Assembly: GCA_947632535.1 (NCBI GenBank) | Contig: CANRPR010000013.1 | Coordinates: forward strand, 1-41,609 | Reading direction: 5' to 3' | Origin: an uncultured Clostridia bacterium | GTDB taxonomy: Bacteria; Bacillota; Clostridia; TANB77; CAG-508 | Length of the DNA stretch: 41,609 nt | Part shown: one piece after another, positions 3 through 18,029 of the stretch | How the letters are laid out: every line of letters begins with the position of its first letter | Numbering within the stretch: position 1 is the first letter of the stretch | The notes under the pieces: model-generated | The model's database searches: none | Seen by the model: only the letters and a program-made list of their open reading frames with translations | Told to the model about the DNA's origin: nothing | Made by a program: the position numbers and the translations under genes

Positions 3-203
3 GTAAATACAGGAGATACAGAACATAAATATGGAAAAGCATGGAATAGTGATTATGTGCTAATAGGAAGCGCTAGCGTCCCGTTCTCGGTTCGCGGTGG
101 CCATTGCTGGGATAGAGCTGGTGCAGGCGTGTTGATTTCGGGAGGGACCGATGGCGATGCAAGCTACATTGATGGGTTCCGCCCAGTGCTTATATTAAAA
201 TAG
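3..203 (+). CDS. C-terminal end of a probable DGR variable (target) protein, 5' partial
   Basis: This reading frame is open from the window edge and ends at TAG 201-203, giving the last 66 residues of a longer protein. The end reads ...GGHCWDRAG...DGFRPVLILK. A W/G/R-rich stretch closing in GFRPVL is typical of the C-type-lectin-like or formylglycine-enzyme-like fold carried by DGR target proteins and some phage tail or surface proteins. By hand count, bases 71-190 have 73 G or C of 120 (about 61%), far above the flanking DNA. That fits a diversified variable region with a GC-rich template origin. An MSL-Avd-RT cassette lies at 16057-17946. The N-terminal part, including any secretion signal, is outside the window. 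A non-diversified lectin-like or FGE-sulfatase domain remains possible. Confidence 0.7.
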   Translation, partial: VNTGDTEHKYGKAWNSDYVLIGSASVPFSVRGGHCWDRAGAGVLISGGTDGDASYIDGFRPVLILK

Positions 204-248
204 AAATATAATAAATAATACAACCTAACTAACAAATAATATATATCT

Positions 249-16056: not shown

Positions 16057-16479
16057 ATGAGCAAGTTATACAAGCAATATACAGAAAACAAGAAGAATAA
16101 TACAGATAAGATATATCTTTTCAAGAGTGGTATATTTTACTTGGCATTAAATGAAGATGCACAAAAACTGTCTAAAATTTTTGATTTTAAAATTACTAAT
16201 CTAAGTGACAAGTTAACAAAAATTGGATTTCCTGGCGGAAGGTTAGAATATTATACAAAACAATTGGAACAGCAAAACATAGAATATGAAATTATAGATT
16301 CAAACAATAAAGCAGTAGAGAATGTTTCGGAATACTTAAATAATTTGAAAACAAAGGAAATTATGGATGGACTAATGGAATTAGATATGAATAATGTTAC
16401 TTTTAAAGAAGCATTTGATATTTTACTTAGTACAAATAAACAATTAAAGCAGATAGCAAATAAAACAGATAACAACTAA
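16057..16479 (+). CDS. DGR accessory protein, MutS-like (MSL)
   Basis: A 140-residue protein whose segment of about residues 19-80 (KIYLFKSGIFYLALNEDAQ, then SDKLTKIGFPGGRLEYYTKQLE) resembles the N-terminal mismatch-recognition domain I of MutS, where F-x-x-G-x-F-Y-x-x-y-x-x-DA is diagnostic. No clamp or ATPase domains follow; the C-terminus is a short helical tail. MSL-type ORFs are reported accessory genes of some DGRs, and here the gene sits directly before avd and the RT. GGAGGAGG precedes the ATG and TATAAT is at 16021-16026. Its role in DGR mutagenesis is not established; binding to the A-mismatched cDNA:DNA intermediate is an inference. Confidence 0.75.
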   Translation: MSKLYKQYTENKKNNTDKIYLFKSGIFYLALNEDAQKLSKIFDFKITNLSDKLTKIGFPGGRLEYYTKQLEQQNIEYEIIDSNNKAVENVSEYLNNLKTKEIMDGLMELDMNNVTFKEAFDILLSTNKQLKQIANKTDNN

Positions 16480-16513
16480 TCTATTAAGAGAAAGGGGTTT
16501 TATGTAATAAAAC

Positions 16514-16867
16514 ATGGATACAAATAATTTAGTTATTTATCAAAAATATTTAGAATTAATTTATTATAGCAATGATTTGGTAAGAAAATATCCTAAAAGT
16601 GAAAATTTTGCATTAGTTAAAGAAATTAAAAATACATTATACACAGGTCTTAGACATTTAATGTATGCAATAAAAATGTTTAATAAGCAGGATAAACTAA
16701 AATCGTTAAATGAGTTTGATATTAATTTGAATCTTTTAAAATTGCATGTTAGATTGTCGTACAAATACAGATATATATCTAATCAGAATTATGAAACATG
16801 GAGTAAACATATAACAGATATATGCAATTTGTTAGGAGCGTGGATTTCTTCATGTCTAAAAAAATAA
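16514..16867 (+). CDS. avd: DGR accessory variability determinant (Avd, four-helix bundle)
   Basis: A 117-residue, all-helical, basic protein of the bAvd/four-helix-bundle family. Family features are YQKYLELIYYSNDLVRKYPK at the start and LKLHVRLSYKYRYISNQNYE near the middle, ending in GAWISSCLKK. Avd forms a barrel-like pentamer that binds the DGR RT and the template RNA and is needed for mutagenic cDNA synthesis. The gene overlaps the RT start by 16 nt. The well-placed SD (AAAGGGG, about 16491-16497) fits ATG 16501, which is followed at once by TAA; the true start is ATG 16514, so re-initiation is likely. Confidence 0.88.
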   Translation: MDTNNLVIYQKYLELIYYSNDLVRKYPKSENFALVKEIKNTLYTGLRHLMYAIKMFNKQDKLKSLNEFDINLNLLKLHVRLSYKYRYISNQNYETWSKHITDICNLLGAWISSCLKK

Positions 16868-17946
16868 GAAATTGTTTTTATGAAAAATTAACGTTTAAGA
16901 AAATGATGGAGGCTCATTATAGAGCAAGAAAGCATAAAGTTTATAGAGAAGAGGTTATCCAATTTGAACTGAATTTAGAAAATAATATTACTAATTTGGT
17001 AAACAACATAAGGAATAAAAAATATGTAATGGGAAACTATAGAACCTTTGTAATATACGAACCTAAAGAAAGAGTTATAAAATCATTACCATACGTAGAT
17101 AGAATAGTACATCAATGGTATGTAGAAGAATTTATTAAACCGTATATAATACCTAAATTCATTAATACTACATATGCATGTCTTGAAGATAGAGGCACGC
17201 ACAAAGCAACTGAAAAAGTTCAGCAGTATATGAGAATATGTAAAAGAAATTGTGGCGATTTTTGGGTACTAAAGTGTGACATTAGGAAGTTTTTTTATTC
17301 AATAGATCCAGTTATACTATATGAAATAATGCAAAAATATATACAAGATAAGGCTTTAATGTCATTTACTAAACTATTAATTTTTGGTAAAAATCATACT
17401 ACAGGGGAAGTAGGAATTCCAATAGGAAATTATACAAGTCAGTTTTTTGCTAATATATACTTAAATGAGCTTGATCAATATGTTAAGCGAGAATTGAAAA
17501 TAAAATATTATGTAAGATACATGGATGATTTTGTCTTACTATTAAAAACAAAACAGGAAGCTATAGAAATTAAGAAAAAAATTAATGAATTTATTCAAAC
17601 AAAATTACATTTATCTTTAAATGACAAATCTAGATATTATCCACAAAAGATGGGAGTGAATTTTTGTGGGTATAGAATTTTTACTACACATAGATTGTTA
17701 AGAACGAATAGCAAAAAGAAAATTAAAAGTAATGTAAAGAAGTGGAATAAATTATATTTGAAAGGTAAGTTAGACTTGGAAAAAACTATGCAAAGTATAA
17801 ATTCGTGGCTTGGACATTCTAGCCATTGCAATTCATATAAATTAACTAAAAAAGTGTTAAATTCATGTGAATTTTTAATGGGACCAAAAATAGAAAGGCA
17901 GATGGAACAAAACTTGATAAATGACTTTTTGACTCAATCTCAATAG
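16852..17946 (+). CDS. Reverse transcriptase of a diversity-generating retroelement
   Basis: A 364-residue RT with no maturase or endonuclease domain. Palm motifs: KCDIRKFFYSID (D143), IGNYTSQ (191-197) and YVRYMDDFVLL (D225 and D226 in YMDD), then VNFCGYRIF. The IGxxxSQ version of motif 4 separates DGR RTs from group II intron RTs (QGxxxSP) and retrons. A DGR RT copies a template RNA while misincorporating at adenines, and the cDNA replaces a variable region. ATG 16852 is chosen because MSKKIRN...YEKL fits the DGR RT N-terminus; it overlaps avd by 16 nt. An in-frame ATG at 16822 would overlap more. No template repeat is seen beside it. Confidence 0.93.
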   Translation: MSKKIRNCFYEKLTFKKMMEAHYRARKHKVYREEVIQFELNLENNITNLVNNIRNKKYVMGNYRTFVIYEPKERVIKSLPYVDRIVHQWYVEEFIKPYIIPKFINTTYACLEDRGTHKATEKVQQYMRICKRNCGDFWVLKCDIRKFFYSIDPVILYEIMQKYIQDKALMSFTKLLIFGKNHTTGEVGIPIGNYTSQFFANIYLNELDQYVKRELKIKYYVRYMDDFVLLLKTKQEAIEIKKKINEFIQTKLHLSLNDKSRYYPQKMGVNFCGYRIFTTHRLLRTNSKKKIKSNVKKWNKLYLKGKLDLEKTMQSINSWLGHSSHCNSYKLTKKVLNSCEFLMGPKIERQMEQNLINDFLTQSQ

Positions 17947-17985
17947 AAAATTATTATAAAAAATGTAGATTAATGCATAAAAATG

Positions 17986-17994
17986 TGATAAAAT
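17986..17994 (+). promoter_or_regulatory. Extended -10 element before rsmA
   Basis: TGA plus TAAAAT (17989-17994), 35 nt upstream of the rsmA start. A weak -35 only. Confidence 0.35.
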
Positions 17995-18029
17995 GTTATA
18001 AGCATTTATAGAATGAGGTATAATTGAAA

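Follow-up and report, generated by a model that had tools for sequence, protein, structure and literature searches.

A diversity-generating retroelement cassette without an adjacent template in an uncultured Clostridia bacterium, and the dispersed RT-14 template RNA genes that it probably uses in trans

The window (the whole stretch of DNA analysed, a 41.6-kb contig of 41,609 nt) comes from an uncultured Clostridia bacterium and carries on its forward strand an operon of three intact genes. The first, at 16057..16479 (140 aa), encodes MSL, a stand-alone MutS domain-I-like protein whose residues 4-88 match PF01624 (E 5e-11). The second, at 16514..16867 (117 aa), encodes the four-helix-bundle accessory protein Avd, which matches PF22296 (bAvd, E 1.2e-20), NCBIfam NF033474 DivGenRetAVD (83.1 bits, cut-off 80) and PHROG 3206, 'Avd protein of DGR' (E 4e-26). 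The third open reading frame, at 16822..17946 (374 aa), encodes a reverse transcriptase (RT) of the type found in diversity-generating retroelements (DGRs). It matches RVT_1 (E 1.2e-16) and PHROG 1423 (E 6e-114), and its IGNYTSQ and YMDD correspond to the DGR-type motifs [IVL]GxxxSQ and YxDD. A sequence-only reading of the window had proposed an MSL-Avd-RT cassette with these RT motifs at 16057-17946, and the matches to the three frames bear this out. It had also described Avd and RT as overlapping. The overlap exists but is probably shorter than the frames suggest: similarity matches of the RT begin at residue 11 and the true start is probably the ATG near 16852, which would make the overlap about 16 nt instead of 46.

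In MutS, mismatch recognition uses a Phe-X-Glu motif. The MSL proteins keep the domain-I signature of MutS, with the Glu of this motif replaced by a hydrophobic residue: the FYE position of MutS reads FYL, FYI or FYV in the MSL of the window and of the relatives shown.

The best solved relative of the RT is 8ub7, a 328-aa 'Reverse transcriptase' (E 8e-44), which we take to be the BPP-1 bRT complex; group II intron RTs follow far behind, at E 1e-16. The operon is conserved. Among 80 RT relatives, from gut-type Clostridia and Bacilli metagenome-assembled genomes (MAGs), MSL lies upstream in most and Avd in nearly all. Of three comparisons of the window RT, the one that was usable, with L040, gives a dN of 0.22 and a dS of about 1.46, which indicates that the RT is under purifying selection. 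A phage-borne origin was considered and rejected: among the phage relatives listed, identity reaches only 37-39%, and none of them is a close source. A genome-wide search found the window RT to be the single RT of the whole assembly. No second RT turned up, and so no template-variable pair with an RT of its own lies elsewhere in it.

Usually, a DGR has its template repeat (TR) near the RT. This feature is absent here, as the sequence-only reading had noted. Self-comparison of the entire contig revealed no A-biased repeat pair, and a covariance model of the template module described below, run with filters off, found no module in the window (genuine copies score 93-109 bits, whereas the top score here was 12.6 bits at E 1.9). 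An Rfam scan of the window returned three tRNAs only. In most Clostridia-type relatives, the TR module lies antisense, 18-170 nt after the RT. The corresponding site, 17947..18023, is empty; the gene directly after it is ksgA/rsmA-like, as read from its translation. A decayed module was also sought in 17947-18029, after the RT, and none was found. The RT lies well inside the contig, and its flanks are fully assembled.

At its other end, the window begins inside a target gene, of which only the 3' end is on this contig (3..203, forward strand), with an open frame ending GFRPVLILK. Its variable region (VR) is at 72..190, forward strand. The sequence-only reading had singled out 71-195 and proposed matching it against the whole genome. 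We did so with the VR at window 61-210 as query against the window's genome (G000; a 1.43-Mb, 68-contig draft, 92% complete, with 2.2% contamination). There were nine further clear matches, five of them VRs in other genes and four non-coding, so the region is a real VR at the 3' end of a target gene. The four non-coding matches are A-rich, carry NNGNANNNNG-type strings in the VR frame and lie on contigs C1, C3, C7 and C28, none on the window contig. A covariance model for the clade recovers exactly four copies in G000 at E<=1e-12 (93-109 bits), the next best having E 8, and these are the same four modules. As far as can be read from DNA, the template is distant and the cassette acts in trans; both possibilities raised by the sequence-only reading hold to this extent.

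The modules have a common layout, in which a short leader (GGGATTAA..C) is followed by the TR (about 115 nt), GTTCCGCCCGGTGCTCACGTTCTAGCA, a hairpin spacer and a conserved element of about 100 nt. The C1, C3 and C7 modules are complete. The C28 module (L025:10756-10976) is without the TR 3' end and the spacer; the segment between the AATAATGG and ACAATGG repeats is gone, apparently by deletion between short direct repeats. It is possibly inactive. Promoter signals before the modules are weak (67% vs 47% in shuffles).

The 3' domain of the module is Rfam RF02921 (RT-14). The C1 copy scores 52.1 bits against a cut-off of 48.1; the C28 copy (42.6 bits) is below the cut-off and the other copies are somewhat below it. 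RF02921 is entered in Rfam as an sRNA. The sources searched assign RT-14 no function, and no paper searched names the family. It is said to stem from a 2017 survey of 224 candidate structured RNAs. Its two helices are 97.6% paired (34 copies), and 15 of their 18 pairs vary on both sides. There are 79 such covarying cells vs 18.6 in shuffled controls, a number also far above slid controls. A third, long-range helix encloses the TR: the leader sequence GGGATTAAACT pairs with the RT-14 segment AGTTTAATTCC. This helix is 11 bp long and is fully paired (11/11) in about 40 of 47 modules. Counting distinct arms, 209 of 231 cells are paired vs 193.5 +/- 2.6 after shuffling (maximum over 5000 shuffles, 205); the leader of C28 and of a few other modules was misplaced in this 47-module count, which makes the agreement lower, not higher. 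Compensating changes between leader and RT-14 are seen in L066 (GGGATTAGACT/AGTCTAATTCC), L091 (GGGAGTAAACT/AGTTTACTTCC), L057 (GGGATTAGGTT/AACCTAATTCC) and G000 (GGGATTAAATC/GGTTTAATTCC). The spacer RNA of BPP-1, located 3' of the TR, both recruits bRT-Avd and acts as the primer for cDNA (PMC12875486). Since RT-14 lies on the same side of the TR, we infer by analogy that it most likely has both functions.

That the module contains a template is best seen in the relatives. The sequence just 5' of RT-14 pairs there with a nearby second copy, and mismatches are essentially confined to template A. In L041, the pair differs at 16/38 A and 0/116 non-A sites, in L061 at 18/55 and 0/139, and in L080 at 12/23 and 0/85. 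One non-A mismatch each is found in L070 (16/42 A, 1/118 non-A), L076 (14/38, 1/124), L066 (13/34, 1/106) and L048 (10/39, 1/121). The Bacilli-type loci L085 (21/29 A, 0/96 non-A), L082 (11/29, 0/107) and L108 (15/36, 0/102) have none. Among loci that share this operon and module, more than eight have 0-1 non-A mismatches over 85-139 sites. These pairs indicate that the sequence just upstream of RT-14 is the true TR in the relatives.

The same pairs bear on the class of the RT. Could it be of another class (group II-like, retron or antiviral), with the repeats belonging to something else? The best NCBIfam matches of the RT are indeed group II, Drt3a and retron models, but all fall below their cut-offs. 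The Avd and MSL neighbours, both known as DGR accessories (PMC10053308) and both found in the operon, speak for a DGR, as do the IGNYTSQ motif and 8ub7 as the best solved match. RTs with 57-71% identity to that of the window, encoded in the same operon, adjoin TR/VR pairs with A-only mismatches. Another class is extremely improbable, as the relatives already contradict it.

The relatives normally carry the module beside the RT, and its position depends on the type of locus. Clostridia-type loci usually have it on the opposite strand, 18-170 nt after the RT, and Bacilli-type loci usually on the same strand, upstream of the RT. Enough flank was available for 29 Clostridia-type loci. A module is recognised near the RT in 23 of them, and an A-only repeat pair in one more, L073. 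The remaining five, L040, L042, L046, L060 and L072, have none there. Four of these five have modules elsewhere in the genome: three on other contigs for L040, two on other contigs for L042, one on the same contig about 59 kb away for L046, and one on another contig for L072. A genome-wide module search of the L060 genome found none.

The genome of L042 (G057) is the clearest natural evidence, as judged from sequence, of such an RT working in trans. One RT was detected in it, the 10 kb upstream and the 8.5 kb downstream of this RT hold no module, and both remote modules adjoin a VR with near-perfect pairing (mismatches at 16/45 A vs 1/119 non-A, and at 13/24 A vs 1/67 non-A). The L072 genome has two RTs, and its remote template pairs with a copy near the RT (19/44 A vs 8/113 non-A). 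In L036, the best RT match among the relatives, a degenerate module (34.5 bits) occupies the usual place and an intact one lies upstream. This arrangement would be expected of a stage between adjacent and dispersed modules.

In other genomes, modules stand in tandem beside the RT. Tandem copies number eight in L057 (plus one remote), eleven in L107, and several each in L083 and L077. In a Bacilli MAG (L095:563-9654), about 25 tandem modules, spaced roughly 370 nt apart, lie upstream of the RT. In L057, one template fits the local VR well (2/111 non-A mismatches) and the other templates fit it worse.

The targets in G000 form a family of about 27 paralogous genes on some 20 contigs. Their VRs close the open reading frames with FRPVL or similar. 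A prepilin-like N-terminus (GITLIALVITIIVLLILAGVTI) is present in 10 of 20 target genes inspected (N_methyl domain at E 0.2 only), and one of two targets tested gave a weak match to the FGE-sulfatase domain (E 2e-4, just below the cut-off). From these features, the targets are probably surface proteins of the pilin type with a putative C-type-lectin-like tip. The best template for the window VR is the C1 module (T1), with 17/29 template A and 9/82 non-A sites mismatched (Fisher p 1.1e-6). In all, nine VRs show a significant mismatch excess at template A (best p 1e-6), and 12 are too diverged to be judged for A bias. In the nine better VRs, 46-65% of the mismatches are at A, below the 75% that is usual for DGR TR/VR mismatches (PMC8144416). 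They have 9-25 non-A mismatches of about 80, and the remaining VRs have 31-46. One target, on C7, lies directly upstream of the C7 module, and its VR does not pair with the TRs. Unlike the VRs of relatives, no G000 VR agrees with one of the four TRs throughout its non-A sites, so either these TRs have not homed recently or the cognate templates are missing from the assembly. Any recent activity in G000 is putative.

The two readings of this mismatch pattern deserve separate consideration. In one, the adjacent template has been lost and the DGR is now inactive, the modules and VRs being fossils of a former trans or cis system. The many non-A differences between TRs and VRs in G000 would fit, as would the truncated C28 module and the target genes, at least five of which look broken or frameshifted. 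So would two relatives: the close relative L036, with its degenerate module after the RT, and G030, where the RT gene (G030:C26:12602-13849) is broken by stops and three RT-14 modules remain in the genome, which indicates a decaying system. However, the three operon genes of the window are intact and its RT shows purifying selection, and the three complete modules have perfect leader:RT-14 helices with lineage-specific compensating changes.

A further argument against a relic comes from the assembly. The first 77 nt of the window are an exact copy of the last 77 nt of C16 (C16:32973-33049), and this overlap stops exactly at the first VR boundary (GCTAGC). The remainder of the window target gene is probably on C16, the two contigs being adjacent. 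An assembly graph built with k=77 leaves a 77-nt overlap at a branch, and the first base of the VR is apparently where the graph has forked here. Such a fork would arise if the VR varied within the sampled population, and could also arise from a paralogue sharing the 77-mer; none was found in the bin. Taken with the intact genes and modules, this leaves inactivity of the whole system a possible but doubtful reading.

In the other reading, the cognate templates are in the unassembled 8% of the genome, the four modules are minor copies, and the RT acts in trans on templates that the assembly does not contain. The lack of any VR in full non-A agreement with one of the four TRs is what this would predict, and several target genes sit at contig ends, which implies that repeats break the assembly. 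A further RT or modules could indeed be missing from a 68-contig, 92% complete draft. But the flanks of the RT were assembled in full and hold no template, the assembly did recover four modules, and the TRs share a non-A framework with the better VRs. We consider unseen cognate templates unlikely.

Binning needs to be considered as well, since in a 68-contig draft with 2.2% contamination the RT contig and the template contigs might come from different organisms. Against this, one member of the target family is on the window contig itself, and its VR pairs best with the C1 template; the contig joins C16 by the exact 77-nt overlap, and the split layout is found independently in other genomes. 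A mixed origin is thus very unlikely.

On the evidence of the sequences compared, the window cassette is a genuine DGR organised in trans. We hold it highly probable that the cassette is the protein-coding half of this DGR, and that its templates are separate, self-contained RNA genes elsewhere in the genome. In the proposed mechanism, the MSL-Avd-RT operon would make a mutagenic reverse transcriptase complex. Each template RNA gene would supply, in this order, a leader (GGGATTAA..), the TR (about 115 nt), a spacer and the structured RT-14 3' domain. Pairing of the leader with RT-14 over 11 bp would bring both ends of the template together, and RT-14, by analogy with the Bordetella spacer RNA, would bind RT-Avd and prime cDNA synthesis. 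The A-mutated cDNA would then be transferred to distant loci, overwriting the VR at the C-terminus of prepilin-like surface proteins. Many distant templates, and the approximately 27 related surface-protein genes, would thus apparently depend on one enzyme.

The system resembles the DGR of Bordetella phage BPP-1 in having Avd and a mutagenic RT, and a template RNA in which the TR is followed by a structured 3' part. In BPP-1, however, avd, TR, spacer and RT lie side by side, and the TR is flanked upstream by the coding sequence of avd (PMC12875486). In the window's genome, the template RNA has a gene and a leader of its own, located elsewhere and present in four copies, and the RT operon has the extra MSL gene. 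Trans action on remote targets is already known (PMC10907252; PMC4891356). In Thiohalocapsa PB-PSB1, each class of DGR has a locus with RT, TR and accessory gene together (PMC10907252), whereas in the window's genome the RT is apart from all detected templates. The DGRs of Treponema denticola also have remote target genes but, unlike here, RT and TR are together in a core module (PMC4891356). In the parts of the MetaCSST survey consulted, some DGRs have several TRs, up to 6 in an atypical case, and 79.9% of multi-VR DGRs have only one; those parts make no mention of separate template RNA genes or of arrays of 8 to about 25 modules (PMC6642488). Compared with its Rfam entry as an sRNA, RF02921 is here assigned as the 3' part of DGR template RNAs, where 11 bp join it to the leader that precedes the TR. 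In the literature searched, which was incomplete, so that priority is provisional, we found no account of RT-14 serving DGR template RNAs as their 3' domain, of free-standing dispersed template genes without a template at the RT, or of large template arrays.

These results explain an RT cassette that looks incomplete and assign a function to an RNA family that was an orphan in Rfam. They indicate that DGR templates can be free-standing genes. A TR near the RT is usual, and is required by some detection pipelines, but is not essential to the mechanism. The detection of Roux 2021 demanded a repeat within 1 kb of the RT. Searches of this kind miss split systems, so that counts of DGRs and of their targets are probably too low for small gut Clostridia. 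More generally, we lean towards the view that this clade of gut Clostridia and Bacilli has a two-part, programmable DGR, in which one RT-Avd-MSL complex is combined with a library of independent RT-14-tagged template genes that multiply and move separately, many templates rewriting many paralogous surface proteins. With separable tagged template RNAs and arrays, template choice, RNA recognition and trans-mutagenesis become directly testable, and a separable tagged template RNA could serve as a modular tool for targeted diversification.

RT-14 modules are also present in three genomes (G015, G037 and G050) that have no close relative of the window RT. These modules are either orphan template genes or served by a different RT partner.
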